Shown here piece after piece: positions 3,914-55,890 of a stretch of DNA of 64,000 nucleotides. Positions within the stretch are counted from its first letter, which is position 1, and every line of letters starts with the position of its first letter. The DNA is from Gemmatimonadota bacterium (GTDB lineage Bacteria > JBHIER01 > G020348925): contig CP070758.1 in assembly GCA_020348925.1 (NCBI GenBank), positions 3,851,601-3,915,600 of the forward strand. The letters are read 5' to 3'. The position numbers were made by a program, and so were the translations under genes. Under the pieces are notes generated by a model. The model was given only the letters and a program-made list of their open reading frames with translations, had not been told where the DNA came from and made no database searches.

Positions 3914-4136
3914 GTCGATTCCTTTATTGCCCCATCTCTCCCAGACCAGCTAAAGGTTTGGGTTTCACATGCCTGAATTTTGCGGTATCACCTCACTGTA
4001 TTAGGGGTCTCGATTGTGTGATGCGACACAAAAGAGAGAAACACCGACAGTCTTTCGGTTGATGCACAAACCATAGTTATTATTCGTTCAAAATCTTCAG
4101 TTGGTTTCGGGGTCCCTGAGATACAGGGAATACTTT

Positions 4137-4301
4137 TTACAACTGAGAGATGTTCAGACCCTTCTGAATGAAAAGGCTCCGCTCACAGTGCGCACACGAC
4201 AGGGCTCCCCTATTCACGGCATCATCACCGTCCTTGTCGCGCAGAATAAGTTCACCATGACACTGAGGACAACACGGCAATGGCACTGTTGAGCATTTCA
4301 T
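4137..4301 (-). CDS. Small Trm112-like zinc-ribbon protein or fragment
   Basis: A 54-codon frame begins MKCSTVPLPCCPQCHGEL and contains a second CAHC pair in RGALSCAHCERSLFI, giving two CxxC knuckles about 25 residues apart. This is the layout of Trm112-like zinc ribbons, which occur alone or as the N-terminal piece of SAM methyltransferases. The frame stops soon after the ribbon, so it is either a stand-alone mini-protein or the stump of a methyltransferase. The ribosome site is weak. It lies in an accessory region next to a pseudogene, which favours a stump. Confidence 0.45.
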   Translation of the reverse strand: MKCSTVPLPCCPQCHGELILRDKDGDDAVNRGALSCAHCERSLFIQKGLNISQL

Positions 4302-4384
4302 CTCAATCACATACTCAGTTACAAGTCAAAAGGGGAAATATCCAAATTGCGGGTTTCTCTCTGTCCACGTGCAGTTCTTTGCTG

Positions 4385-4993
4385 TTACTCCATTGAGCAA
4401 AACTCACACCTTCGTTCTTGTCGATACATATCCAAACCACTACTCTTTCCCCTTACCCGCAATACGAAAAAAAGAACGAGAGCAGATGCAAAGAGAAAAA
4501 AGGCGATGATGGCAGCAATGGCAAGGTAGTATCGGTTTCTAACAGAAGTGTCCGTTAGTTTCCAGCGCCTGATTGTATAGCGAAAAAGCATGATGGAAAG
4601 AAAAAGAAAAATGCTTTGGATAAAGAAGAAGGTGTATTGAGAAAAAAGAATACCGGCCGCAGCCCATGCATCGGGGAACTGTTTTGTAGAAGCACGATAG
4701 ATATTCAGAACAAGAAAACCGGGGACTAAAATGAGGGCTATGGTTGAATTGGCTATGAGGAGCTTGAATTCGTTGCGATCGCCAAAGATGAAAAAAAACG
4801 TCAACATAAAACCCAGAACAACAAGTGGGAACAAAGGCTCGCTGTGATGTGATTTGGGATAAGACGGAGAATATCCGGCCCAGAGGCTGTACAAACCCCA
4901 AAAGAAAAGCCACAGGAGCAGCTCGTATGCAACCGACTTGGTAGCATATCTGTCAATTAATGATCCACGACTTTTCGAAGGAATGGAATTCAC
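4385..4993 (-). CDS. Multi-pass membrane protein of unknown function
   Basis: I do not recognise this 202-aa protein. It has about four hydrophobic segments: near residues 24-42 (LLLWLFFWGLYSLW), 55-70, 80-97 and 115-138 (FFFIQSIFLFLSIMLF), and a last one at 152-172. A basic tail with CEFC follows. The start is a GTG that overlaps the stop of a short upstream frame and follows an AAGGAAGAG ribosome site at good spacing. It lies downstream of the HAD-like gene on the same strand and may be co-transcribed with it. No catalytic motif is visible. Confidence 0.6.
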   Translation of the reverse strand: MNSIPSKSRGSLIDRYATKSVAYELLLWLFFWGLYSLWAGYSPSYPKSHHSEPLFPLVVLGFMLTFFFIFGDRNEFKLLIANSTIALILVPGFLVLNIYRASTKQFPDAWAAAGILFSQYTFFFIQSIFLFLSIMLFRYTIRRWKLTDTSVRNRYYLAIAAIIAFFLFASALVLFFVLRVRGKSSGLDMYRQERRCEFCSME

Positions 4994-5167
4994 TATCTCT
5001 CTTCCTTAAGAATGAAAGGTTCTATCATTCCTTCAGTTTGTACATAAGTTGCTTGCCAACGATTAGCAAACCACAAAGCCTGCACAGTCCGTTGGATCCG
5101 CCGATCTTCTTCACTCGAGTTGATCCATCCATGCTGATTGTATCGTTGTGAGGAAACCACAACGATA

Positions 5168-5971
5168 TTATTCCAGCGGTTCGACAAACGCGCTTTCCGG
5201 TTGGCGTGTCACAGGAAAATCGACGGGAAACACTTCGAGTTTTACCTTCTCTCCCATGTGTGTGTTAATCACGAAGAAACGTTTGTCGATGTAATCTTTC
5301 TTGCATTCACACATAGCCCTTAAAATAAGGCTCACGTTCTGCGGATCGTCGTCGGACATGCCAAAGCGGTGTTCTGGATCGGATCCGAATTTTTCCAGCG
5401 CCTTGTCGACGGATTTCTTGATCGCGACTCTCTTCAATGCCGGTGTGGTCTTTATCAGGCCGGGATCGTCGAGTTGTTCGCGGCGCACCTCATCGTTTCC
5501 TACGGGTAAAAGGGTGAGGTAATTCGGCTCTCGCGGGATCAGGCCTTTTTCGACGAGTACGCGCAAACCGACCTTCAGGGTCCCGGGACTGTGGCCCCGG
5601 GCAGTAATAATCGAGACGGGCCGCTGTTTTTTGCAGGCGTAAACGAACAGATCCCAGGAGGGCGCTTGCCAGTTCCGCTCATTCGATTCAATCGCCTTTT
5701 CAATGTCCTCCACAAAGTATTGTTTCTGACCGGGTTGTAGTTCGTCTGCCGGAATATCACCGAAGTTACGGTAACTCCCGTCGAACATGGCATAGTTCTC
5801 CCACTTGCCCGGCTGTCCCAGGAGAGGATGAATAGTGGCAAATTCACCGGTGCTGAACGGCTCGGGTTTCTCCGTTTCCGTGTTCAGGATGAATATGGGT
5901 GTGGTCAAGAACATGATGTTGTCATCAAAATCAAAGAAATAGAAGCTAACATCGTCAAATTGAATGGCCAT
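5168..5971 (-). CDS. HAD-superfamily-like protein
   Basis: The 267-aa product has a HAD-type first motif, FYFFDFDDNIMFL, in which two aspartates sit in the nucleophile loop (DFDDN). It also has ITARGHSPGTLK in the place of motif II and GMSDDDPQNV as a possible acidic motif IV. Family members are Mg-dependent phosphatases or related phosphotransferases. Substrate is unknown. The start is set at the second methionine (MAIQFDD) because CAGGAG stands 9 bases before it, while the longer version has no good ribosome site. It lies about 120 bases after the phospholipase D-like gene on the same strand. Confidence 0.65.
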   Translation of the reverse strand: MAIQFDDVSFYFFDFDDNIMFLTTPIFILNTETEKPEPFSTGEFATIHPLLGQPGKWENYAMFDGSYRNFGDIPADELQPGQKQYFVEDIEKAIESNERNWQAPSWDLFVYACKKQRPVSIITARGHSPGTLKVGLRVLVEKGLIPREPNYLTLLPVGNDEVRREQLDDPGLIKTTPALKRVAIKKSVDKALEKFGSDPEHRFGMSDDDPQNVSLILRAMCECKKDYIDKRFFVINTHMGEKVKLEVFPVDFPVTRQPESAFVEPLE

Positions 5972-6089
5972 TTCTTCGTACTCCTGTTTTGTCGGGTTCA
6001 ACAGTGCGAGCGCAAGCCTCTTCCCCGCACCGACTCCGTTCAGCGGAACAGCCAGGAACAGTGAGTGTCAGAGAGAAATCTTCCGTCGC

Positions 6090-7955
6090 CTAACTGAACA
6101 ACAGCCTTTCAGAGAGCTCCTGTGTCCCATCGGTGTAGTAGGGTTTCGTCCATGAATCATCAGGGTATAAATATGCTGCCTTTTCCGCTTCCTCGTCGGA
6201 CAGCTTGTTCAACTCATTTCGCGACTTGAAGTGGTTAAACAGCCGCATGAATTCCCCGAGAAATATGTCGGCGACGCGTTTGTTGCCCCGAATGATGAGC
6301 ATGTTCTCGTCGTTGTTGACTGTGGAGGCCTCACTGAAGTTCGCAGAACCGGTAATCACCACAGGATCGTCCGAGAGCGGATCTATCAGCATGTACTTGG
6401 TGTGCAGATAATTGACATGGTCGTTCAATCCCGTCAGCGTTTCGATGAATTGTTTGTGCTTATCTTTACCGCCTGCCCGTTTCTTCAAGGTATCGCCCCA
6501 CGCTATCCGGTTTTGCGTGCACTTGGCCATGAGGGGGTACTTCGGCCGCATGAGGCCCGTGATACCTTCCAGCAAAAGATAGCGCAGGTATGGTCCTCCG
6601 CCGCTGACCGGCTTCTTCCTTTTCACCTTTTTGAAGATTTCATCAGCGACGGAAAAGGCTGCGGTGAAGAAGACGGAATTCTCCGCAGCATCCAGTCGGT
6701 CGGCGTACCAGTCGAGCATGGCCTTGGTCAGCCGCGGGCTGAATACCGGAGTCATGGAATTTGGCGGCGGAGGTCCCTGGAGATCCGACTGCTGCAGGAT
6801 CGTCCAGTTCCGAAGACCCTTATCGGGAGGATCGGATTTCGCCGACTTCTTCTTGGGATCGGTGGAAAGTTTAGCCCAATACTCGAAGTACTTTTGCGCC
6901 ACGGCTTCGTCCCGTACGACATGTCCCACGTTGGACTGGCCGAAGATTCCGCCGGCCGTGAAATTCGTGGAGCCGGTCCAGACCTGTATGGGCTTGCCGT
7001 TCTTCAGCAGCACAATGAACTTGTTGTGCGAGATCTGTGTGATTGTCCGTGGTATCATCATTTCCTTGAATGCGGACAGATATTTGGCATTGGAAATCCC
7101 GATCTGGCTCACGGCCTGTTTGGCCGCCTCACAGACACTATCTCCGGACACCTCTTTGATCACTTCTCTGCTCGTGTACGTTGCCGGTTCCTGTCCACCC
7201 TTCGTATAGTTCACAGTGGTGTCAGCATCGTAGTTCCGCTTAAGCCGATACGTACTCTGTCGTTTGGCGTGGTGCACAATTTTGACGTCAGCTCCCCTCT
7301 CCAGGGCATTGACGAAAGCCTGAATGACTGGGGGATAGGTGAACTCATACACCGCGGCGCGTATCGAATATTCAGGACCTTTGGCCTGGGCAATGAAACG
7401 CAGCATGGCTTCTTCAAGCCCTCGCGACAGCCACTTGTAAGCCTCGCGCTGTGGCACATCTTCCGGCTTGAGGAATTCGGTAAATCTCATCTCATCCGGA
7501 TCTTCCACCTGAGCCTCATCCTTGTACCATCTGCGGTACTTGCCGAACCGGCGGCTGTAGGCCTGACTGCCGGCGACGCCGCGGTTGAAGTAGACGGCGT
7601 GCGTCTTATCCTCCGGGTCTTCAGTAGTAATCGTTACGTCAACCGGTTTTCCCTTTTCAGGTGCTGCGGGACTACCGTACACAGGGACCACGCGGTAGGT
7701 ATAGGTTTTCTTCGGATCCACGACATAATCACTCCACTGAAAAGCTTGAATAACCGGCACTTTGCTTGTGATTCCTTCAAAATCGCGATCGCCACGCAAC
7801 GGTTGAAACTTACCTGTTTTTCCTTTGCGCTTGGAAATGGTAAATCCCAGCAGACCCTTGGCCGCTTGCTTCTCTGCGTTCAGTCCAAGCAGTACGACCT
7901 CCGTACCGGCAATCGCATGGACTGAAATGCCTGTTTTCTTGTTGCGTTTGCGCAT
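6090..7955 (-). CDS. Phospholipase D-like protein with N-terminal Fn3-like domain
   Basis: The product (621 aa) carries two PLD-type half-sites. The first is HNK at residues 310-312 followed by GSTNFT. The second is a full HxK(x)4D at H518, K520, D525 followed by GSANFSEAS. The first half-site has leucine where the aspartate is expected, so it is incomplete. Residues about 15-110 look like a fibronectin type III-like beta domain ending YTYRVVPVYG. No signal peptide is visible, so the protein is probably cytoplasmic. The family includes phospholipases, nucleases and phosphotransferases acting through a phospho-histidine intermediate. The ATG follows AAAGGAGAA. Its substrate is not evident. Confidence 0.75.
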   Translation of the reverse strand: MRKRNKKTGISVHAIAGTEVVLLGLNAEKQAAKGLLGFTISKRKGKTGKFQPLRGDRDFEGITSKVPVIQAFQWSDYVVDPKKTYTYRVVPVYGSPAAPEKGKPVDVTITTEDPEDKTHAVYFNRGVAGSQAYSRRFGKYRRWYKDEAQVEDPDEMRFTEFLKPEDVPQREAYKWLSRGLEEAMLRFIAQAKGPEYSIRAAVYEFTYPPVIQAFVNALERGADVKIVHHAKRQSTYRLKRNYDADTTVNYTKGGQEPATYTSREVIKEVSGDSVCEAAKQAVSQIGISNAKYLSAFKEMMIPRTITQISHNKFIVLLKNGKPIQVWTGSTNFTAGGIFGQSNVGHVVRDEAVAQKYFEYWAKLSTDPKKKSAKSDPPDKGLRNWTILQQSDLQGPPPPNSMTPVFSPRLTKAMLDWYADRLDAAENSVFFTAAFSVADEIFKKVKRKKPVSGGGPYLRYLLLEGITGLMRPKYPLMAKCTQNRIAWGDTLKKRAGGKDKHKQFIETLTGLNDHVNYLHTKYMLIDPLSDDPVVITGSANFSEASTVNNDENMLIIRGNKRVADIFLGEFMRLFNHFKSRNELNKLSDEEAEKAAYLYPDDSWTKPYYTDGTQELSERLLFS

Positions 7956-46015: not shown

Positions 46016-47761
46016 CTAAGAAGACAGCACACTCCGGTAGAGATTTTTATAAAATCCATCCTTCTCCACCAATTCCTCGTGATGCCCCGTCTCAACGATC
46101 TCCCCGTCCTTCATAACGAAGATCGTGTCAGCTTCTCTGACTGTCGAAAGCCGATGGGCAATAATCACAGTGGTCCTGTTTTTTGAAAGCTGAAACAGGC
46201 TCTTCTGCAACAGAGCCTCGGTCTCTAAATCCAAGAATGACGTAGCCTCATCAAGTATGACGATCTTCGGATTTTTCAGAAAAACCCTGGCGATGGCAAT
46301 GCGCTGAGCCTGTCCACTGGAAAGACGGAGCCCCCTCTCCCCGACCTGTGTTCTGTAACGATCCGGAAGGGAAAGGATAAAATCATGACATCCGGCATCC
46401 TTTGCCGCCTGAATAATCTTTCGATCATCGGAGATTCTGTTACCGTATGCTATATTTTCCCTGACGCTTCCACTTAAAACAAAAGTGTTTTGCAGAACAA
46501 TCCCCATTTGGCTGTGCAGAAATTTCAGATCAATTTCTCGAACATCCACATGATCCACCATGACGACTCCTTCATCGGGCTCGTAATAGCGAGAAAGGAG
46601 ACCGCACAGAGTCGTCTTTCCACTCCCGCTCGGTCCCACTATGGCAACCGTTGATCCTCCTGAAACATCAAACGTCACATTTTTCAACACTCGATTGTAA
46701 GGATAATATCCGAAGCTCACGTTCCGAAATGAAATATGGCCTTCCAAAGCACCCGGAACGACATTCCCCTCATCGCATTGAGAACGAACATCATATATTT
46801 CATAAAAGCGATCGAAGCTGACCAAAGCCGCCTGCAAACTCAAAATGATATTGGTCGCTGTGGTAATGGGATTGTAGAGTCTGTTGGCAAACATCATGAA
46901 CGCCATCAGACCCCCTAAACTCAAACTCTCATGAATCACCAAATGTCCACCGTAGTAAAGAATTATGAAAGCCCAGAGATTGTTGATACAATTGACAGTG
47001 CTCGCCGAGCATTTGGTGAGCATAAAGCTTCTTATTTTCTTAATGACGAAATCATGGAGATCCCGATGAAATCTCAGAAGTTCTGATCCTTCCGCAGCTG
47101 ATCCTTTAATCATTTTCAAATTCCCCAGACATTCGATCATTCTGCCAGTTATGTCTTCAGCCTTCTCCTTGACCAACCGTGAATACTTGATAATAGGTTT
47201 ATAGAACTTGAATATGGTTACAACATGACCGATAAAGATGGCAAACACAGCCAATGCCAGTTTCCAGTTGAGAATGAACATGCCGGCCGCAATAAAAAGT
47301 GCAATGATGATATTCATGAAAAAATTTATTGGGGTGGCGGCAATAAACTGATGTATTACGTCGGTGTCCCTCATAATCCTATAGTGGAGTTCACCGCTTT
47401 TTTTTGAATCCAGGAAGTGTACAGGGATCTTTTTTAAAATGCGGGCGTAAAAGTCAAACTTGATATCAAAATCAATTTTCTGATCGATCCGAACAAAAAC
47501 GTAATTCTGGAATATATCCAAGGCCGTTCCAAAAATTAAAACCCCCAGCATCACTCCCAACAAGATTCTCATTAATCCCAAGTTCTTGTTTATAATAACA
47601 TCGTCAATAATTATCTTCGTCAAAATGGGAGTGATGAGGGACAGGAACAAAAAGACGAAAAGAAGAATGACGCACAAAGCTATTGTATCTATATACTTCA
47701 AGCCATATGTTTTCAATGCTCTTGTGTATCTACTGTGAACAAAATCGTACAGAACGAACAC
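46016..47761 (-). CDS. ABC exporter (permease fused to ATPase)
   Basis: The 581-aa protein has six hydrophobic segments in residues 25-310 and an ATPase domain with Walker A GPSGSGKT (376-383), signature SSGQ (481-484), Walker B VILDEA (501-506) and switch histidine in IIAHRLST. It is a type I half-transporter of the MsbA/peptide-export kind and would work as a homodimer in the inner membrane. There is no N-terminal C39 peptidase, so it cannot cut a double-glycine leader itself. It is the last gene of the peptide cluster. The start is uncertain: the GTG at 47761 is only two bases from AAAGGAGG, and a CTG three codons on would be better spaced. Confidence 0.9.
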   Translation of the reverse strand: MFVLYDFVHSRYTRALKTYGLKYIDTIALCVILLFVFLFLSLITPILTKIIIDDVIINKNLGLMRILLGVMLGVLIFGTALDIFQNYVFVRIDQKIDFDIKFDFYARILKKIPVHFLDSKKSGELHYRIMRDTDVIHQFIAATPINFFMNIIIALFIAAGMFILNWKLALAVFAIFIGHVVTIFKFYKPIIKYSRLVKEKAEDITGRMIECLGNLKMIKGSAAEGSELLRFHRDLHDFVIKKIRSFMLTKCSASTVNCINNLWAFIILYYGGHLVIHESLSLGGLMAFMMFANRLYNPITTATNIILSLQAALVSFDRFYEIYDVRSQCDEGNVVPGALEGHISFRNVSFGYYPYNRVLKNVTFDVSGGSTVAIVGPSGSGKTTLCGLLSRYYEPDEGVVMVDHVDVREIDLKFLHSQMGIVLQNTFVLSGSVRENIAYGNRISDDRKIIQAAKDAGCHDFILSLPDRYRTQVGERGLRLSSGQAQRIAIARVFLKNPKIVILDEATSFLDLETEALLQKSLFQLSKNRTTVIIAHRLSTVREADTIFVMKDGEIVETGHHEELVEKDGFYKNLYRSVLSS

Positions 47762-48181
47762 CCCTCCTTTCGACGAGAGGAGTATGAAATGTGAAGAAAC
47801 CCGGACCTCTTTGGTTCTATGGCGAATTCGCGGTTCGACGAAAATCTGAAGGAAGCCTATCCAATGATTCTCTCGCCGGCAACGCTCTCAAGCGATGCGT
47901 GCAAGAAGACGTCCACCGAAGCGATACATATCATGAAACAATCGTCTCTTCTATTTCACAATGTGACGAATGCACCAGGTGCCAAAATTTTGTGAATAGA
48001 GAGACGTTCAAAAAAAAACTTGCACCTCAGTATCTGATTTGAAAAACATCACAGACAAGAAGCTTCGAACATACTGTTATTTTTTCTGGAGTTGTGTCTT
48101 TGCGCCCCTGCGCGAACAATTTTCGGAGAAGACTTTTCTCGAGCCGACCGTAATCATGTCAGAGCTTCGAATATCTTCAGT
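47762..48181 (-). other. Gap between ABC exporter and DUF3108-like gene
   Basis: I checked both strands for a small peptide gene and found none with a ribosome site. Stops are frequent in all frames. The gap could hold a promoter for the exporter but no consensus pair was seen. Confidence 0.35.
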
Positions 48182-48928
48182 TCAACGTAACGGGTTGCCC
48201 ATCCTTTGGGATGAGACTGTTGGATGATACTGTTTCAACTCCAGTACCATATTGTGCGTCTCGCAGTGATACCGTACCATGGGGTGAGGGTGATTTTGAG
48301 CATACCACAAAAGTACCCTCTGTCCAGGAACACTGAGTTCAATGGCACTGCACAGAAATTCCCCGGCATCTCCCGTCACAGTATCGGACCCGATGGTCTT
48401 GAAAAAAGCGGTCTGGACGTGTTTTGCAAAGGGATAGAGATAGAAAAAAGATGCCGCACGTCTTCGCTCGAAGTCCACAGTCCTGAGAAGATGGACTATC
48501 TGTTCGTTATCATAGACAGCTCCTCGAAGAGGGACAGAGAAACGATCCTGTTTCGGCAAGAGAAGGTGCACTGTTGCCTGATGCGTGGTGTATGCAACCG
48601 ATGCCTCAACCGTTCCTCCGCCCAAATTCATAACTTTTTTCGAGGAAACCGGTGCATAGGTGCTTTCGTAAAATGTTACTTCGGAATCAAACACTTCTTC
48701 TTTCCCAAGGAAACCTGATACCGTGTAGAATTTTTGCCCTTGCCCCTCTCCTGTCATCGCAAGAACATATTTGAGCTCCGTTTGAATTTTTCCATCAACA
48801 AGAATATCGTAGGTGAACGCTTCATTATGGCCATAAGGGGCCTCTCCGAAAAGGACTTCCCCTCCACGCCTGTGTACTGACGAAGTATTGGAAACTTGAG
48901 AACTCTTTACTCTATCAAGAATGTTCAT
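48182..48928 (-). CDS. DUF3108-like protein, second copy of the peptide cluster
   Basis: About 248 aa, predicted mostly beta strand, with no signal peptide or membrane segment seen. The segment EAFTYDILVDGKIQTELKYVLAMTGEGQGQKFYTVSG and the following FDSEVTFYESTYAPVSSK resemble the DUF3108 pattern, in which a beta-rich protein recognises or traffics an envelope component. It is related to the 49426-50139 gene product: the C-terminal part of each contains a HPHPMV/RPHPMV motif before a last strand. Role in the cluster is unknown; self-protection or help in export are possible. The ATG at 48928 follows a GTG and the ribosome site AGAAGG is close. Confidence 0.55.
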   Translation of the reverse strand: MNILDRVKSSQVSNTSSVHRRGGEVLFGEAPYGHNEAFTYDILVDGKIQTELKYVLAMTGEGQGQKFYTVSGFLGKEEVFDSEVTFYESTYAPVSSKKVMNLGGGTVEASVAYTTHQATVHLLLPKQDRFSVPLRGAVYDNEQIVHLLRTVDFERRRAASFFYLYPFAKHVQTAFFKTIGSDTVTGDAGEFLCSAIELSVPGQRVLLWYAQNHPHPMVRYHCETHNMVLELKQYHPTVSSQRMGNPLR

Positions 48929-49058
48929 CACCTTCTTCGGGAGACAGGCTGGGAGACGTTAAGAAATTATTTATTTCTTCAAAAACGCAATGATCCAGGG
49001 GAGCCCAAGACGTATTCTTCATTCCGTCACGTTCACCGGTACACCATACCATCGTCAT

Positions 49059-49355
49059 TCATTTTTCAAATTTTCTGCACCCCAAAACAGTATTGAGCAC
49101 AATGGCCAAAAAGAGAAGGAGTAAAATCCACATGAACACGTTCCCCAATTGGTGGGCCGCGGGAAAGAAAGCGAAACATATCCCGATGAGACAGATCCGC
49201 AAGCCCGCAAACTTCGCCAATCCCTCTTTATCCTCTACTTTCGATGGATCGTATCCAGCCAACAGCCACAGTGTTTTCTTGGCCCAAATAAGCCATCCAG
49301 ATATGATACCGATCAATCCAATGACGCAGAATAGTACTATAGCGGCCATATTCAT
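49059..49355 (-). CDS. Small DUF3784-like membrane protein
   Basis: The 98-aa product has three hydrophobic segments: AAIVLFCVIGLIGIISGWLIW, a middle one starting LRICLIGICFAFF, and VFMWILLLLFLAIVLNTVLG. A KTLWLLAGYD segment after the first is typical of DUF3784 proteins. The ATG (MNMAAIV) follows GAGGAGGGGATGAG at ideal spacing; a longer frame without a ribosome site was rejected. Small membrane proteins beside peptide clusters often give immunity, but this is only inference from position. Confidence 0.7.
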   Translation of the reverse strand: MNMAAIVLFCVIGLIGIISGWLIWAKKTLWLLAGYDPSKVEDKEGLAKFAGLRICLIGICFAFFPAAHQLGNVFMWILLLLFLAIVLNTVLGCRKFEK

Positions 49356-49425
49356 CTCATCCCCTCCTCGAAACATTGAAATGCATAACGATACATTCTC
49401 CTCCTTGAACGGCGACAGACCTCCA

Positions 49426-50139
49426 TCACGGCATAACATAATTGGTCAGTTCAATAATTTGGGTTCCCTTGACGTTCTTCACCATCGGATGAGGCCTCTG
49501 CTCGGAAATCAATATATATTGCTGTACTTCATTTCTCAGCTCCTTTTTCGAAGAAATTCTCCAGCAAACAAATTTCCCCGCCGGAACCACCACAACCTCT
49601 TTGGCCTCGACTTTGAGCATCGGATGGGTCACAACTCCTTTTAAAATATGAACAGCAGAGATCGAAGCGGAGTATCCAGTATATGTGTTCAATAAGGAAC
49701 GTATGAGAAAATGAGCCTGATAGTTATCAAAAACGTTCAAAGGCACATTCATACTCGTTTTATGTTTTGCGCGAGCGGTTTCAACATAAATATCCACTTT
49801 CCTGCCCTTGTAATGTCCCTTCACCTTGATGGTCTCACCCTCGGGTGTCTGCAGACTGATGTGCGTCACAATGGGCTTGTAATCTCCTTTGTTCGCAAGA
49901 ACGGTTACCTCCTCAGTGTAGCTGGTATGATACATTTTGGTTTGAGTTATGATTGAAATATAATCATTTTCCATCTCTTTTGAAAGCCTATTTTCAATCA
50001 CGAGTTCGCCAATGCTTATTTTCTCCTTACTCTTCCGAACCCAGTCAATGGTGTATTCCGCCCTTTCCCCGTTCAACCAGGGTATTTCAGCAAACAACGA
50101 TTTCTTGGTGTTCTTTTCTGGCACGTTCTGAATTCTCAT
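49426..50139 (-). CDS. DUF3108-like protein, first copy of the peptide cluster
   Basis: About 237 aa from the ATG at MRIQNVPEKN; a TTG start 25 codons upstream inside the PH gene is the alternative and no clear ribosome site decides between them. Mostly beta strand. LNGERAEYTIDWVRKSKEKISIGELVIEN fits the DUF3108 opening, and EAKEVVVVPAGKFVCWRISSKKELRNEVQQYILISEQRPHPMV is the late part shared with the 48182-48928 product. Having two diverged copies in one cluster suggests two related jobs or partners. No enzyme motif is visible. Confidence 0.55.
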   Translation of the reverse strand: MRIQNVPEKNTKKSLFAEIPWLNGERAEYTIDWVRKSKEKISIGELVIENRLSKEMENDYISIITQTKMYHTSYTEEVTVLANKGDYKPIVTHISLQTPEGETIKVKGHYKGRKVDIYVETARAKHKTSMNVPLNVFDNYQAHFLIRSLLNTYTGYSASISAVHILKGVVTHPMLKVEAKEVVVVPAGKFVCWRISSKKELRNEVQQYILISEQRPHPMVKNVKGTQIIELTNYVMP

Positions 50140-50174
50140 GAAACGTTTTATTGTGGTTGTATCGAATGACCGCC

Positions 50175-50708
50175 CTACAACGCGCCGTCCAACTCTCCCT
50201 CTCGAATCTTCCAATACCTGTGAGAAGCATCTACGAATCTCCGGGGCGTCTCCACACTCATCACAATCACACGATCACGTGTTCGAACGCCGACAGCTTT
50301 CTCGAACGTGGTCACGAAAACGAGCCCTCGTTCATTATTTCTCAGTTGATGGTATCCTCCACTATACCCCGGAAGTGAAAACCCGCACGTTCTCAGCTTC
50401 GGTTTCAGGGTAGAATCGGGAATCGAAACCTCACATATCTCCTCGACACGAAAACGCATACTCTGAATTCCCAGCTTAATGGTCAAGCCATCGGACGTCA
50501 TCTCGAAGCGTGTGTGATACATTGCATAGAGATTGCAACAGACGGAACAGAGAACGAGAAAAATGAGAAACAGTGTTACACAGCACGACATCCTGTTTCG
50601 TGTGTGCAAAACATTATAGACGATCAAGCCTAAAAGAAAAACGATAACCATAAGGTGGCTGATTATGGCCTTGTTGAACAATGGCATGAAGAATATTTCA
50701 GATGTCAT
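50175..50708 (-). CDS. Membrane protein with bacterial PH domain (bPH_5-like)
   Basis: About 177 aa. Two N-terminal membrane segments (ISHLMVIVFLLGLIVYNVLH and CCVTLFLIFLVLCSVCCNLY) are followed by a cytoplasmic beta-rich domain with TSDGLTIKLGIQSMRFRVEEICEVSI, GFSLPGYSGGYHQL and GLVFVTTFEKAVGVRTRDRVIVMS. The glycine- and tyrosine-rich LPGY block is typical of the bacterial PH-like family bPH_5. Family members are membrane proteins of mostly unknown role, sometimes near bacteriocin systems. GGAGGGG lies before several in-frame starts; the ATG at 50708 has the best spacing. It is the first gene after the peptide gene and its hairpin. Confidence 0.7.
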   Translation of the reverse strand: MTSEIFFMPLFNKAIISHLMVIVFLLGLIVYNVLHTRNRMSCCVTLFLIFLVLCSVCCNLYAMYHTRFEMTSDGLTIKLGIQSMRFRVEEICEVSIPDSTLKPKLRTCGFSLPGYSGGYHQLRNNERGLVFVTTFEKAVGVRTRDRVIVMSVETPRRFVDASHRYWKIREGELDGAL

Positions 50709-50797
50709 CACAGACACCCCTCCCTCTACAGATGCGAGGTGTTGCTTTCAACGAATTTTTGTGAGCGAAAAAACAGCGAGATTCCATAAAACCTGGA

Positions 50798-50843
50798 GGG
50801 AAGCGTGGGCACTGCCAAGTGCGTTGCACGCGCCCACGCTCCC
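50798..50843 (-). terminator. Strong hairpin after the peptide gene (attenuator-like)
   Basis: A 12-bp GC-rich stem (GGGAGCGTGGGC with GCCCACGCTTCCC, one bulged A) starts 28 bases after the peptide stop codon. It is not followed by a long T run. Such hairpins after precursor genes often lower downstream transcription or protect the precursor mRNA 3' end, so that peptide is made in excess over the other proteins. Confidence 0.75.
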
Positions 50844-50871
50844 TACAAGGCAGTCACTTTGAGACAGAATC

Positions 50872-51048
50872 CTACGTGCTCCAAAACACTGCACCGGCAA
50901 CAACTGCGGCAGCAACAGCAATACCGGCAACGGTAGCAGCTGCAGCATACACTGCGACAAGAACCCAAGCGATCCAGGTGCACACAGCTGCCGGCCTATC
51001 ATCCTTACTTCCCAAAGGAAGGATAAGGGGCGTCTCATATTCATTCAC
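50872..51048 (-). CDS. Putative RiPP precursor peptide (58 aa, GTG start)
   Basis: A 58-codon frame starts with GTG at 51048, nine bases after a perfect AAAGGAGG, and ends with TAG at 50872-50874. The N-terminus, MNEYETPLILPLG, carries Y4-x-x-P7-x-I9-x-x-x-G13, which resembles the YxxPxLxxxG motif of lasso-peptide leaders that bind RRE domains. A polar SKDDRP stretch follows. Residues 20-58 are very hydrophobic, rich in Ala and Val, with one cysteine (C23), three tryptophans (W25, W28, W56) and Y34, ending FWST. I infer a leader of about 15-20 residues and a modified hydrophobic core. Cluster genes on both sides include two radical SAM enzymes and PqqD-like domains. No homologue is known to me. 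Confidence 0.75.
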   Translation of the reverse strand: MNEYETPLILPLGSKDDRPAAVCTWIAWVLVAVYAAAATVAGIAVAAAVVAGAVFWST

Positions 51049-51124
51049 CGGACATCACCTCCTTTCACACTTTCTCCTGATGGATGCAAATCCAATACAA
51101 TATTCCACCGGGAGAGACGAAGTA

Positions 51125-52024
51125 TTACGCGAGCATCCAACGGCTAAAGACCTGCAGATCTTTACCCCAACCAAGTTCATCCTTGAATTTCGCCTCCTCA
51201 CTGAAACCTTTCGCTGATAAAAAATCGAGTATGCGCTCGTTGGCCATGTTCTCACTATCTTGCAACTGCAAGCACTTCACCTTAGTACAACGGATTTGCG
51301 GGGGAAGAACGCTGGGCAAGAGTGCAACGGCGAAATCAAACAATTTTGAAAAAAAGACAACCGGTGTCTCTCCGTTTGCCTTGAGCATCAGTCCGATTAT
51401 TGTCGTCCTATCGGGCAGCCAGGCATTGGGAAACGTCAGACTTACGAGTCCCGTAAGCGTGTGATCCTCACATGACACAAAGAAACCTTCCGTATTGAAA
51501 AAAATTTTCTGTCGGATCACGGTTTCATCATAGCCATCACGGGGAAAAACAGGATTTTCGTAAAACGGCTTTTTATGCTCCAGATGTTCTTGCTCCTTTG
51601 GAATACCAAATTTTTGTAATAAAGCAACGATCTCCCCCACATCTTCTTCGGTGGCAACATAGGCTTCAGCCGTATTTCCCATTTTTTGGGCATACATCTT
51701 AGAGAAGGGATTCGAACCGATCCACTCTATCAGTCCAAGTTTCCAGAAGCTTCGAATGACATTATTGATATCCTGCCTCAGGGTGTGTGAAGAGACGTTC
51801 GAATATCGCGCCCTGAGCTGTGCGTGGATTTCCTCCAAGGTGCGTGCTCCGGTACACAACTCCTTGATTTCCACACCTGTGCGGTTAAGCAGCAACTGTT
51901 GCGTCTCAGGATGTTGCTTGGAGAGAAATGTAAAACATCCCTCCTTTTCCTCCCTGAAATAGTCGAGATTCTCCTCAACGAATTTTGGCTGAGGTCCTTT
52001 GGTATTCTTTGGAGGCACCATCAT
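51125..52024 (-). CDS. PqqD-like RRE domain fused to a GNAT-like domain
   Basis: The 299-aa product has two parts. Residues about 25-105 look like a PqqD-type winged-helix recognition element (LLLNRTGVEIKELCTGARTLEEIHAQLRARY, then DINNVIRSFWKLGLIEWI). Residues about 118-299 resemble a GNAT acyltransferase fold, with the late segment ILDFLSAKGFSEEAKFKDELGWGKDLQVFSRWM. The second part is a clear paralogue of the 53455-54156 product. I infer that the RRE brings the precursor to the GNAT domain. TAGGAG stands seven bases before the ATG pair. The cysteine-poor protein has no membrane segment. Catalytic residues of GNATs are not conserved enough to confirm activity. Confidence 0.75.
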   Translation of the reverse strand: MMVPPKNTKGPQPKFVEENLDYFREEKEGCFTFLSKQHPETQQLLLNRTGVEIKELCTGARTLEEIHAQLRARYSNVSSHTLRQDINNVIRSFWKLGLIEWIGSNPFSKMYAQKMGNTAEAYVATEEDVGEIVALLQKFGIPKEQEHLEHKKPFYENPVFPRDGYDETVIRQKIFFNTEGFFVSCEDHTLTGLVSLTFPNAWLPDRTTIIGLMLKANGETPVVFFSKLFDFAVALLPSVLPPQIRCTKVKCLQLQDSENMANERILDFLSAKGFSEEAKFKDELGWGKDLQVFSRWMLA

Positions 52025-52033
52025 CGTAAGCTC

Positions 52034-53458
52034 CTACCCAATTCTCTTTACCTCTACAAAACCTTCAAACCGCAGTCTGTTCACAAATTGTACAACGTCG
52101 TGTAAAATATCGTTTCGCGGTATCGCGATATTGGGCTTTTTGGGCTCAACTGCCGACGCGAGATCCGCAAAAGAAGGCGTGCCTGTATGGATCATTTCCC
52201 ATATCCTTTTTCCTACAGGGTTCAATTGAAACGTTCGCTTCAGGGTATAGTCGGAGGTGACGCTCCACACCTCTAACACATCATCGGTCACGTTCCACAT
52301 GAGATCTCTTTTCAAGGCTGGAAAGAGCTCCTCCGGGGGACCCATATTCTCGCAGTGCAACGACAGTTTTCCCATTGCCTCGGCTGCGACCCGACAGTTT
52401 TCCAGGGCCTCCTCCCCGAGGAGTAACACACTCAGTGGACATAACTTACAAACTTCCGAATAGTCACAGTCCGGGCATATATCGGCACGTTTGTTCGTAT
52501 TCGTATCCCTGACAAACTGCTGCACCCGTGCATAGTACGGGGATTTCGTTATATCTTGGAGTGAATGGGTCCGAACATTCCATCCCCGAACTTTGAAGAT
52601 ATCGAGGGCCGTCACTTTTTGGGCGGATAACCAAGAACTGCACGGATACAAATCTCCGTTCGGCTTCATAAAATAGCTCCCCTCCAGAAGAGCGCAGCTC
52701 GGATAAATAACAGGAAAATCAGTACCATGTTTCACGTTATAAAAGGTAATTTCTCTAGGGGAACTTCCCTTGAGAAACAGACGTGTTCCGCCTTTGAACT
52801 CAAGGGAACGTGCAATCATGCGATCCACCGCCCAGAAAATCTCTCTTCTTGAAGTGATGAGTTCCCCCTTGTGGACGCGTCCGCGTCCCAACGGAGCGGC
52901 GACACCGATATAGAGTCGATCCACCCCCAGATCGTTGCACACTTCAACCATATCGATACAATGAGCCTTGTTCGCGTTTGACAGCGTGAAACTGACGAAG
53001 ACATCGACCTGCTTGAACTCGGCTTCATTGCGCTCAACACACATACGGATCGCATCGATCACTTCAGCAAACACTCCCTCACCTCTCATGCGATCATTGT
53101 CCTCGGCCCTTGCCCCATCGAGACTGAAATACAGAGCGGATACTCCGGAATTCAACAGTTCATGCACCTGTTTTTCATTGCGAAGGAGCGTGCCGTTCGT
53201 ACACAAGGTACAGATAAGGCCTTTGCGTGCGGCATACTGTAGTATGGAAACGAGATCCCTGCGAATAAGCGGCTCCCTCCCCTGTATCGCGATACTTCTG
53301 ACACCTTCCTCGACAAAGACATCGATCGCTCTTTGAGCTTGCTCCGTGTCCAAATCCCTCATGTTGTTGTACACGTCGGCCGTAAAACAATGTCGACAAC
53401 TCAAATTACACTTTCCTGTGATATCCCAATTCATGTGGGTAATACGATTCATTTTCAT
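52034..53458 (-). CDS. Radical SAM/SPASM enzyme with C-terminal PqqD-like RRE
   Basis: The protein of about 474 aa has the radical SAM cluster motif CNLSCRHC (C17, C21, C24 from this start), a GREP variant of GGEP, and a SPASM domain with C255, C273 (CX13GX4C form), then C328-X2-C-X5-C-X2-C340 and C355. That is enough ligands for auxiliary iron-sulfur clusters. The last 90 residues (LMWNVTDDVLEVWSV, then LNPVGKRIWEMIHTGTPSFADLASAV and VVQFVNRLRFEGFVEV) form a PqqD-like recognition domain. Enzymes of this layout modify ribosomal peptides, often by thioether or C-C bond formation. The start is either the ATG overlapping the GNAT stop (ATGA) or the ATG two codons later with AGAGG eight bases upstream. 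Confidence 0.9.
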   Translation of the reverse strand: MKMNRITHMNWDITGKCNLSCRHCFTADVYNNMRDLDTEQAQRAIDVFVEEGVRSIAIQGREPLIRRDLVSILQYAARKGLICTLCTNGTLLRNEKQVHELLNSGVSALYFSLDGARAEDNDRMRGEGVFAEVIDAIRMCVERNEAEFKQVDVFVSFTLSNANKAHCIDMVEVCNDLGVDRLYIGVAAPLGRGRVHKGELITSRREIFWAVDRMIARSLEFKGGTRLFLKGSSPREITFYNVKHGTDFPVIYPSCALLEGSYFMKPNGDLYPCSSWLSAQKVTALDIFKVRGWNVRTHSLQDITKSPYYARVQQFVRDTNTNKRADICPDCDYSEVCKLCPLSVLLLGEEALENCRVAAEAMGKLSLHCENMGPPEELFPALKRDLMWNVTDDVLEVWSVTSDYTLKRTFQLNPVGKRIWEMIHTGTPSFADLASAVEPKKPNIAIPRNDILHDVVQFVNRLRFEGFVEVKRIG

Positions 53459-54156
53459 ATCCTCTGCTGTCCCCGCTGCGTGAACCACCGACTAAAAATG
53501 ATCACATCCTTTTTCGGTCCAAATTCATCTCGGAGCGTCGACTCTTTTGAAAAACCGTTGTGGATAAAGAAATCGCAGATTCTTCTAATACCTTTTGAAC
53601 GTTTCACCACAAGCCCTTTCACCTTGGTACATTCCACAAGGGCAACACCGGGAAGACAGTCGAAAGCAAAATTGAGAAGTGCTGACAAAATAGGGTGAGG
53701 GACGGTCTTCGGGTACAAACTGAGAATCAGCTCAAGGACCGCTGCTCGGTAAGAATACTGAGGAAGAGGGAATCTGAAACTCAGAAGCGCTGAGGGCGTA
53801 TCGCACTTTCGCAACAGGAAAAAAGCGGCGGTGTACTTAAACAAATGCGATCTGATATCAGTTTCTGAGTATGCTCCCAGCGGTAATGAGGGGCTTACGT
53901 AAAAGGGAAGGTTGGGAGCACCTCTCGAATTCGAACGAAAAAACCCGAACAAGCTCATAAAGTATGCAATGTCATCGATATCCTCTTCACGGGCCAGGGC
54001 AACTGTGACGTCGTTCCCCAAACTCCGCTCAAACAATTCCTCGCGGTCTACTCCGTGAGGACCGTACGTCTTGATATGATGATCCTGACTGAATTGAGGC
54101 ATAATGTTTCCCCTTTCTGCATCACATGTACGACAATCGGCTTGGGACAACTTCAT
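53455..54156 (-). CDS. GNAT-like protein, stand-alone paralogue
   Basis: A 233-aa GNAT-like protein. NDVTVALAREEDIDDIAYFMSLFGF begins the fold, ALVECTKVKGLVVKRSKGIRRICDFFIHNGFSKESTLRDEFGPKKDVIIFSRWF is the late half, close to the GNAT part of the 51125-52024 product. It has no RRE. The start overlaps the first radical SAM gene by four bases (ATGA); an ATG 18 codons later with AAAGGGG upstream is also plausible. It may acylate the peptide or only share the fold. Confidence 0.7.
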   Translation of the reverse strand: MKLSQADCRTCDAERGNIMPQFSQDHHIKTYGPHGVDREELFERSLGNDVTVALAREEDIDDIAYFMSLFGFFRSNSRGAPNLPFYVSPSLPLGAYSETDIRSHLFKYTAAFFLLRKCDTPSALLSFRFPLPQYSYRAAVLELILSLYPKTVPHPILSALLNFAFDCLPGVALVECTKVKGLVVKRSKGIRRICDFFIHNGFSKESTLRDEFGPKKDVIIFSRWFTQRGQQRI

Positions 54157-55202
54157 TCGTGCCCAGCCTCAAACGGATTCTCATCAATCAGATCAATGAA
54201 CAGACAATCATCATAGAACACCGTCGGTGTGTCGGGATCAATTTTTCCAAAATCCGGAACACTTCGTATGCGACGAGCGAGTTTCCTGACGATCGAGAGG
54301 CTCCAGGCGCGACCGAGCCCTGCATCCCAATACGACTTCAATGAATGCTTGCGGATATTTCCGAGAGAGAGCGGCAAATAGGGCGAAACCGTAATGTTAC
54401 CGTCCGCACATATTGTCACGAAGGGGCAAAAACCGTCCGCCTTGTTTCGAAAGTGTATGAGATGTTCAACAGGATCACCCCACTCGACCCTCATATCTTG
54501 GCAACCATTCAGGATCTGTATCTTCTGTATCAATGTGCGATATTCGTAAGGTGTCGGCACAATCTTCTCCTGGTTCGGCAGAGCCCGTCCCAAAATCATC
54601 AGTGGCTGTATCCGAACCAGACCCACACCGCGTTTTTTAACCAGATCGACCACGTCTTCGATCTCGCCGATGTTGAATTTTGTCGGTGTAAAGGCGACGC
54701 CCACTCTAATGTTTTCACGGCGAAGATTGTCAATCGAATGAAGTGCTTTTTGAAATGATCCGGGGGCCAGTCTCAGCTGCTCATGGGTGGATGCTCGCGA
54801 ACCGTCCAGGCTGACCTGAACCTGGTACACGCCAACGTCCCTCAATCGTCTCGCCCTTTGACGGGTCAAAAGCAGACCGTTGGTCACCAGAGAGGCTTTT
54901 ATCCCCGCAGTTCTCAGTATTTCAAAGCCTTCGTACAAAAGTGATTCTCGTAAGAACGGTTCGCCCCCGCAGAAACAGAATGAATATGGTTTTAAGTATC
55001 GTATATCCTCATCTAAAAATCGAATCACCTCTTCATCGGAGAGCTCTTTTCTCCTGTCCCCTCTCTCCCCGCTCAAATTGAAGCAATGCAAACACCGCAT
55101 GTTACACCGATACGTGATATCATACGCGATGTGAAGAGGTCCTCTTTGAACCCTGGCATCTTTCGAGAGCGGTACATCCTTGATCGTCAACGTATCGTTC
55201 AT
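54153..55202 (-). CDS. Radical SAM enzyme with SPASM/twitch-like C-terminus
   Basis: The 349-aa enzyme has CNMRCLHC at residues 33-40 and FCFCGGEPFLRES for SAM binding, then VSLDGSRASTHEQLR. The C-terminal part has few cysteines (FCPFVTICADGNITVSPYLPLSLGNI and a last DDCLF), which suggests a shortened SPASM or twitch domain. The LHIAYDITYRCN opening is typical of peptide-modifying and PqqE-like enzymes. It has no RRE and may rely on the RRE in its neighbours. It is the first structural gene of the cluster, and its stop overlaps the first GNAT gene. Confidence 0.88.
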   Translation of the reverse strand: MNDTLTIKDVPLSKDARVQRGPLHIAYDITYRCNMRCLHCFNLSGERGDRRKELSDEEVIRFLDEDIRYLKPYSFCFCGGEPFLRESLLYEGFEILRTAGIKASLVTNGLLLTRQRARRLRDVGVYQVQVSLDGSRASTHEQLRLAPGSFQKALHSIDNLRRENIRVGVAFTPTKFNIGEIEDVVDLVKKRGVGLVRIQPLMILGRALPNQEKIVPTPYEYRTLIQKIQILNGCQDMRVEWGDPVEHLIHFRNKADGFCPFVTICADGNITVSPYLPLSLGNIRKHSLKSYWDAGLGRAWSLSIVRKLARRIRSVPDFGKIDPDTPTVFYDDCLFIDLIDENPFEAGHE

Positions 55203-55488
55203 AACGTCCCACCCTCACGACTGTTTCTCTTCAACATGACGCATCCTGTTTCTCAGTATTTTGAGGAAAAGGATCTTCATGGGATCCTGAAGGGATCTCG
55301 TTCCAGATCGGTCTCTCCGCCTGACTGCGAGTTCTAGCTCAACAGATCTGTACCTTCGATCAGTTTTTCTTCAGAAGCATGAATGCAGTTTTCTTTTCCT
55401 CCCCAGGTAAAAAACGTATCTCAAAGATGAAGAAATAAGATCTCTCTGTCAACAGGAAAGCAATGGACATTTTGAGAAAATTCATGGG

Positions 55489-55890
55489 CTAATTGAGATG
55501 CTCATGCTGTGAGTCGTCTTTGTTTGTTTTATACTCCAGGGGAGGGACACCGACATACTTTTTAAACATCTTTGAGAAATGAGAAGGATCTCGAAAGCCA
55601 ACCTCAAAGGATACTTCCTTGACGCTCAAATTCGTTTTCTGAAAAAGCTCCTTGGCCCCTTCTAATTTTGTCTGGATTAAAAAATGTCCGATGGATTGAC
55701 CTGTTTTATTCTTGAATTTTTTTCGCAGACAGTGATACCCAAGGCCCAGGGCATCCGCCACATCGTGGGCCGAAACCATTTTCCCGTAATAGCACCGGAT
55801 ATAGATTCTCGCGGACTCAGCTTCCAATTTCTGCGAGAGCAACTGTTCGATGACTTCGTCGGTGCTTTCGGACATCTTTTCGTCGGACAT
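55489..55890 (-). CDS. AraC-type transcription regulator (DNA-binding domain only)
   Basis: The 133-aa product has the two helix-turn-helix units of AraC/XylS proteins: VSAHDVADALGLGYHCLRKKFKNKTGQSI, then LSVKEVSFEVGFRDPSHFSKMFKKYVGVPPLEY. There is no sensor domain; the first 30 residues are a short helix. It lies directly upstream of the peptide cluster on the same strand, about 290 bases before the first gene, and is the best candidate for its regulator. A partner protein or modified start may provide signal sensing. Confidence 0.85.
   Translation of the reverse strand: MSDEKMSESTDEVIEQLLSQKLEAESARIYIRCYYGKMVSAHDVADALGLGYHCLRKKFKNKTGQSIGHFLIQTKLEGAKELFQKTNLSVKEVSFEVGFRDPSHFSKMFKKYVGVPPLEYKTNKDDSQHEHLN

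Follow-up and report, generated by a model that had tools for sequence, protein, structure and literature searches.

Several described systems combine radical SAM enzymes, peptide-recognising domains or membrane-active peptides in ways that resemble the locus studied here. Proteusin epimerases (polytheonamide PoyD, OspD) carry only the SAM cluster and a critical Cys (PMC8326336); they have a C-terminal RRE and act on hydrophobic Val/Ala/Ile-rich cores that follow a long (nitrile-hydratase/Nif11-like) leader. Epipeptides (YydF/EpeE) are short peptides that likely act on membranes, with an ABC exporter and a radical SAM enzyme, EpeE, that has two [4Fe-4S] clusters (PMC8326336). The sporulation killing factor and subtilosin-type sactipeptides (SkfB, AlbA) follow a bacteriocin logic with a radical SAM enzyme, an ABC exporter and immunity. 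In lasso peptides, YxxP is a validated RRE recognition sequence (PMC12710340), and maturation involves a transglutaminase-like B2 protease and an asparagine-synthetase-like cyclase. The SDP cannibalism toxin (SdpC/SdpI) is a short hydrophobic toxin paired with a small membrane immunity protein and is not made by radical SAM or GNAT enzymes, while in selidamides, goadsporin and nostolysamides a GNAT-fold maturase works on a ribosomal peptide. Here, we describe a gene cluster that is best read as an undescribed RiPP family producing a very hydrophobic, membrane-active peptide. The RiPP identity is well supported and the bacteriocin function moderately so, whereas the chemistry is inferred.

The cluster lies on the minus strand, from 55890 to 46016, of a 64,000-nucleotide stretch of a Gemmatimonadota genome (contig CP070758.1; hereafter the window). 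It starts with a probable cluster regulator, a 133-aa AraC-type protein with an HTH_18 domain only (55489..55890; 3.9e-20), followed after a 286-nt gap by a radical SAM enzyme, rSAM1 (54153..55202; Radical_SAM 5.9e-22), without a SPASM match. GNAT1 (53455..54156), a GNAT-like protein without an RRE, overlaps both of its neighbours by 4 bases. The second radical SAM enzyme, rSAM2 (52034..53458), combines Radical_SAM (PF04055, 2.8e-23), SPASM (PF13186, 24.0 bits, cut-off 21.5) and a C-terminal PqqD-like RRE (PF05402, 32.6 bits, cut-off 23.4). It most likely starts at ATG 53458, which gives the 4-base ATGA overlap with GNAT1, rather than at GTG 53488. Next is a PqqD-GNAT fusion (51125..52024; PqqD 1.2e-10), in which the RRE is joined to a GNAT-like domain. 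No Pfam model recognises either GNAT, but GNAT1 is a paralog of the C-terminal domain of the fusion, and a six-sequence profile of the family matches spermidine acetyltransferase SpeG at 3.4e-6 over positions 137-280 and the lasso RRE TbiB1 at 0.0084. The GNAT domain is therefore real, although the canonical Q/R-x-x-G-x-G/A acetyl-CoA loop is absent in all six sequences. The 58-aa precursor peptide (50872..51048; MNEYETPLILPLGSKDDRPAAVCTWIAWVLVAVYAAAATVAGIAVAAAVVAGAVFWST) starts with GTG and is preceded by a near-perfect Shine-Dalgarno sequence (AAAGGAGGTGATG). It is the only one of 598 small ORFs in the window with an N-terminal YxxPx[ILVM] motif and a core of mean hydropathy above 2. Downstream of a strong hairpin are a membrane protein with a bPH_5 domain (50175..50717; 3.6e-7), a candidate immunity or resistance protein by analogy, and a DUF3108 protein of unknown role without evident signal peptide (49426..50214; PF11306, 8e-7), in which an ATG lies a few codons downstream of the TTG. 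These are followed by a small DUF3784 membrane protein (49059..49439; PF12650, 2.6e-9; a later start near 49355 is plausible), which is a candidate immunity protein, and by a second DUF3108-like protein (48182..48931; PF11306, 9.7e-5, 22.7 bits, below the cut-off of 26). The last gene encodes an ABC exporter (46016..47761; NCBIfam exporter matches) with membrane and ATPase domains but no C39 peptidase domain.

These findings confirm the preliminary description of the locus, which had listed this gene order, the four-base overlaps between the early enzymes, the hydrophobic peptide and the hairpin from the sequence alone, without being able to test conservation. Two outcomes had been named in advance as fatal to its reading, namely homologues of the enzymes lying next to unrelated substrates, and a peptide frame not conserved in relatives. 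We observed neither of them. In all four relatives with full context, L061 (Paenibacillus sp. S150), L066 (a Clostridia MAG), L083 (Collinsella aerofaciens) and L091 (a genome of L066's family), the rSAM1 ortholog (33-41% identity) sits beside a PqqD-GNAT fusion, a small hydrophobic peptide and an ABC exporter. The fusion is broken in L061, and only five complete loci are known, including the window. A further rSAM1 ortholog was found at the edge of a fifth contig. The ortholog matches were far above those of other radical SAM proteins (282 and 201 bits against 98 for the next). Each of the five loci has exactly one small ORF, next to the enzymes, with both an N-terminal YxxPx[ILVM] and a core of hydropathy above 1.7. 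All five peptides share the leader Y-x-x-P-x-[ILV], whereas the cores share hydrophobicity only and four of five lack Cys. Small membrane proteins of the SdpI/YfhL (1.1e-12), DUF1648 (5e-13, 8e-13) or DUF3784 (2.6e-9, 6.3e-7) types are encoded in or near every locus. In L061 and L083, however, the DUF1648 genes lie one or more genes away from the core, and the DUF3784 match of L083 is below its cut-off. The inference that the pairing of GNAT and radical SAM with this type of peptide matches no known RiPP class is also supported, as no NCBIfam, Pfam or literature hit describes the combination. GeoRSP_rSAM scored 103.6 and 73.3 bits against a cut-off of 400, and all other radical SAM models listed were far below cut-off. 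One correction concerns the two radical SAM/GNAT modules: the conserved unit is one radical SAM enzyme plus one PqqD-GNAT, and the second module (rSAM2 and GNAT1) and the bPH and DUF3108 genes are additions seen only in the window.

Comparison with the described systems shows both shared and missing elements. Like proteusin epimerases, rSAM1 appears to carry the SAM cluster only: its orthologs lack SPASM cysteines, and the only invariant cysteines are those of CxxxCxxC plus C76 and C78 (CxCGGE), together with an invariant WGDP[VI][DE]H. C76 and C78 are conserved in five orthologs and are candidates for the critical hydrogen-donating Cys, but their role was not examined and conservation alone does not settle it. 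In contrast to proteusins, there is no long leader, and rSAM1 has no recognisable RRE, this domain being on the separate PqqD-GNAT protein; orthology to PoyD was not shown. The absence of conserved auxiliary cysteines also separates rSAM1 from EpeE, which it matches only weakly (6.9e-7), and epipeptide loci are, to our knowledge, not reported to carry a PqqD-GNAT. SkfB is the closest solved structure to rSAM1 (2.2e-31), yet there is no conserved core Cys, no auxiliary cluster in rSAM1, and the RRE is on another protein. The leader motif and the TbiB1-like, PqqD-type RRE are shared with lasso peptides, although binding of one to the other was not assayed. Neither the B2 protease nor the cyclase is among the Pfam-assigned genes of the window cluster or in the gene list of L083. 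SdpC homology is lacking (9.8 bits against a cut-off of 99.2). As for its immunity protein, a true SdpI was found only in L091 and the window has DUF3784 instead, an observation that leaves kinship with the SDP system undecided on this point; YfhL is a paralog of the SdpI immunity protein (PMC8144471). Finally, the GNAT differs from those of the acylated RiPPs in being fused to a PqqD RRE, paired with a radical SAM enzyme and missing the canonical CoA loop, and there is no Lys in the window core.

We consider it fairly likely that the cluster represents a RiPP family making a membrane-active, bacteriocin-like peptide. In this view, the Y-x-x-P-x-[ILV] motif of the precursor would be bound by the RRE fused to the GNAT domain and, in the window, perhaps also by the RRE of rSAM2. 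The hydrophobic Ala/Val/Ile/Leu core would then be modified by the single-cluster radical SAM enzyme and the GNAT-like enzyme. The most likely radical SAM reaction is at C-alpha of aliphatic residues (epimerisation), because four of five cores have no Cys for a thioether and the enzyme keeps two invariant extra cysteines. The GNAT step would be acylation of the peptide, which is doubtful because the canonical acetyl-CoA loop is missing; the domain might be non-catalytic or use another donor. The ABC exporter would secrete the product after leader removal by a protease that is not encoded in any of the loci, and the SdpI/DUF1648/DUF3784-type proteins would protect the producer, even though these families are not exclusive to bacteriocin loci. 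Our analysis directly demonstrates the gene set, its synteny, the leader motif and the domain homologies, while the chemistry, export, killing activity and immunity are deduced from them; no modified mature peptide was measured. More tentatively, this could be a new RiPP class in which a single-cluster radical SAM enzyme and a fused RRE-GNAT jointly convert a hydrophobic peptide into a D-residue-containing, N-acylated membrane channel. The GNAT would then use a donor other than acetyl-CoA bound in the usual way, and the pathway would have been doubled in the window by a second rSAM-SPASM-RRE and a second GNAT.

Alternatively, the radical SAM enzymes might form thioether or C-C cross-links of the sactipeptide, ranthipeptide or cyclophane type rather than D-residues. 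This is possible but less likely. SkfB, the closest structure to rSAM1, is a thioether former and not an epimerase, rSAM2 has a SPASM domain, and the window core contains one Cys plus Trp/Tyr residues. The predicted structure of rSAM1 (pLDDT 62, pTM 0.67) shows a radical SAM barrel with SkfB (Z 17.8, rmsd 2.8 over 224 residues), viperin and PqqE tied as best matches, and thus does not discriminate between chemistries. However, four of five cores contain no Cys, so a thioether cannot be the shared reaction. In addition, rSAM1 orthologs have no conserved auxiliary-cluster cysteines, and no aromatic tripeptide motif is conserved. It is rather unlikely, but not excluded, that the product is a signal (pheromone) or an envelope-associated peptide. 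L066 carries an agr-like module (response regulator, kinase, AgrB and two AgrD-like peptides) directly upstream, the window has an AraC regulator, and small hydrophobic exported peptides can signal. Yet the agr module is in one locus only, SdpI/DUF1648/DUF3784 proteins recur in the loci, and Ala/Val-rich cores of 30-55 residues fit membrane insertion better than receptor binding. A small-molecule or cofactor-like product, such as the PQQ and mycofactocin that PqqD-rSAM pairs can make and which are also small, is very unlikely, given that the same kind of peptide with a shared leader motif sits next to the enzymes in all five loci, that exporter and immunity-like proteins are conserved, and that PQQ and mycofactocin models score far below cut-off.

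Proteins with a PqqD RRE plus a stretch that no Pfam model recognises were recently singled out as unexplored RiPP enzymes (PMC12710340). The present locus gives such a protein a domain identity (GNAT-like), a substrate (the Y-x-x-P hydrophobic peptide), a partner (a SPASM-less radical SAM enzyme) and a probable function (a bacteriocin with SdpI-like immunity). The five loci are spread over Bacillota, Actinomycetota and an isolated phylum, of which the window's genome was the only one in the set searched, and they offer natural variants for co-expression tests. Moreover, Collinsella is a gut commensal genus, in which such a peptide could shape communities.

The cluster is rare. A first scan of genome contigs with the GNAT pair found nothing, nor did searches of viral and plasmid sequences with the GNATs. 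The PqqD-GNAT query in 145 genomes and a profile search in 386 genomes gave only the window itself and unrelated PqqD proteins, one of which (locus L010) belongs to a PQQ operon, and rSAM1 against 386 genomes gave only generic radical SAM proteins of up to 123 bits. The relatives were recovered by a scan for which one alignment held an artificial third row, used only to choose search patterns; hits were judged by comparison with the real window proteins. The predicted structure of PqqD-GNAT was of low confidence (pLDDT 37) and was not used. An alternative overlapping 98-aa frame at 50748-51044 has no family match and lacks the leader motif. The hairpin that follows the peptide gene (50792..50845, approximate bounds) is significant (-48.1 kcal/mol, z -3.91), single-copy and without an Rfam match, and is a probable attenuator or terminator. 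The corresponding region of L083 has no significant hairpin (z -0.4), whereas hairpins also follow the peptide in L061 (z -2.1) and L091 (z -7.2).

On the minus strand, from 55890 to 46016, the window carries the gene order given in the preliminary description, and that observation therefore held. The overlaps reported there between the early enzymes were likewise recovered: rSAM1 and GNAT1, and GNAT1 and rSAM2, share ATGA overlaps, the latter if rSAM2 starts at ATG 53458, while nine bases separate rSAM2 from the PqqD-GNAT fusion. In the Pfam search, rSAM2 carries a SPASM and a C-terminal PqqD domain, both above the Pfam cut-offs, whereas rSAM1 has no SPASM match. The peptide begins at GTG 51048 behind AAAGGAGGTGATG, and a hairpin of -48.1 kcal/mol (z -3.9) separates it from the downstream genes. 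The compact operon is interrupted between the second DUF3108 gene and the ABC exporter, where an unusual gap of 420 nt (window 47762-48181) has no convincing minus-strand gene. The GC content of the cluster (0.43-0.49) is below that of most of the window, which fits horizontal acquisition.

Neither of the two GNATs is found by Pfam or NCBIfam alone. Nonetheless, GNAT1 and the C-terminal part of PqqD-GNAT are paralogs (31%, 8e-26), and once relatives were added the resulting profile matched the spermidine acetyltransferase SpeG at 3.4e-6 and the lasso-peptide RRE TbiB1 at 0.0084. The assignment as GNAT in the preliminary description was thus right, but the canonical acetyl-CoA loop Q/RxxGxG/A is missing in all six sequences.

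The genome that contains the window is the only member of its phylum in the genome set examined, and searches of 386 diverse genomes found no ortholog. A scan of about 85,000 species with a radical SAM alignment found two, one in Paenibacillus sp. S150 (locus L061, 41% to rSAM1) and one in a Clostridia MAG (locus L066, 33%). These led to Collinsella aerofaciens (L083), to a second genome of the L066 family (L091) and to a copy at the end of a contig (L082, 4890-9044), where the rSAM1 ortholog sits just after two large serine recombinases of a prophage, suggesting an insertion hot spot or mobility. The family is rare, being present in 1 of 394 Paenibacillaceae-family genomes and in 2 of 46 genomes of the L066 family. 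A different RiPP-like locus was seen in a Clostridia MAG (L055, 7400-10644), in which a PqqD-like protein, an S26-like peptidase and two adjacent radical SAM proteins accompany a 63-aa peptide containing KYTSPMVKALDIS, again with a Y-x-x-P motif.

Two outcomes had been named beforehand as counting against a RiPP cluster, namely enzyme homologs lying beside unrelated substrates without a peptide, and a peptide frame that is not conserved. In the four complete relatives (L061, L066, L083 and L091) the rSAM1 ortholog instead adjoins a PqqD-GNAT fusion, a small peptide and an ABC exporter of 534-552 aa, which is too short for a C39 peptidase domain. The Paenibacillus PqqD-GNAT gene (L061, 7050-7922) has one in-frame stop near codon 244, so this copy may be decaying or mis-sequenced. 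A small membrane protein follows in or near the cluster: DUF3784 twice in L066 (one below cut-off), SdpI in L091, a DUF3784-like protein (below cut-off) and DUF1648 in L083, and DUF1648 in L061. The peptides are MKMMEYTRPSVTPLGGDMETQGTWLWTETVVAGVAYAIIAVVLTAIDITP in L061, MEKEKYEEPNLVVLSGDEYGIQPLGIALPPLLIVAAFVIAAANLLVAVAAAGVVALAGATQVHGVVNVDTYTTVS in L066, MYETPEVEKMDSKTGPVPVVVNFAAVVDNVVAAVYDAVVAAYAFWYSADNDGTGTSAAQN in L083, where the annotated start is too late, and MEEFETYEKPKISSLNGNPYQPAPLALAALVLPVAGLVALVLTTVVAYTQGIIIAVAAGVGVVHAVVGANVTPTAK in L091. Each locus has exactly one small ORF that combines YxxPx[ILVM] near the N-terminus with a hydrophobic core (25-residue mean above 1.7), and it is this one; in the window 598 small ORF ends were tested and one was returned. 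Hairpins also follow the peptide in L061 (z -2.1) and in L091 (z -7.2). In L066 an agr-like quorum-sensing module (4094-7521), consisting of a response regulator, a histidine kinase, AgrB and two near-identical AgrD-like peptides, lies directly upstream of the RiPP cluster. Next to the Collinsella cluster (L083, 12639-15575) are a DUF5969 protein with an Asn/Ala-rich repeat region, a protein that looks radical SAM-like but is annotated as hypothetical, and a methyltransferase, possibly a second RiPP locus.

YxxP is an established RRE recognition sequence (PMC12710340), so the PqqD domain of the fusion most likely holds the leader and presents the core to its own GNAT domain and to rSAM1. The rSAM1 orthologs keep only the SAM-cluster cysteines plus C76 and C78, which lie in a CxCGGE motif and, in the predicted model, on the strand leading into the SAM-binding GGE turn. 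Given that four of the five peptides have no core Cys to accept a thioether, and that the cores are aliphatic throughout, C-alpha epimerisation with an enzyme Cys as hydrogen donor is the simplest reading, in the manner of proteusin epimerases (PMC8326336). Whereas the conserved gene set and leader motif were observed directly, this chemistry is inferred, and the solved structure nearest to rSAM1 is that of SkfB. The GNAT step would be acylation of a freed N-terminus or of a side chain; alternatively, the domain may be a non-catalytic partner. No leader protease has been identified. Secretion by the ABC exporter and protection by SdpI/DUF3784-type proteins make a membrane-active bacteriocin the best functional reading; YfhL, a paralog of SdpI, protects against SdpC (PMC8144471). 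The bPH_5 protein is a further immunity candidate, by analogy with YdbST of B. subtilis, which protects against amylocyclicin. YdbST has PH-like domains, which were not tested here.

The preliminary description had proposed an apparently undescribed RiPP cluster, and this interpretation was supported. No curated model and no paper in the literature searched, which was limited to open-access articles and so does not exclude a description in a subscription journal, names this combination. The Collinsella proteins are annotated as 'PqqD family protein', 'radical SAM protein' and 'hypothetical protein'. We regard the cluster as belonging to the RiPPs, a kind of system already known. Within the window, rSAM2-SPASM-PqqD, GNAT1, bPH_5 and the two DUF3108 genes have no counterpart in the relatives. 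The window therefore carries the minimal unit plus a second radical SAM/GNAT module, possibly for a second modification of the same peptide. Additionally, the same genome (L001, genome position about 949361-951495) has a separate radical SAM - PqqD - radical SAM triad, which is GeoRSP-like but well below the GeoRSP cut-off.
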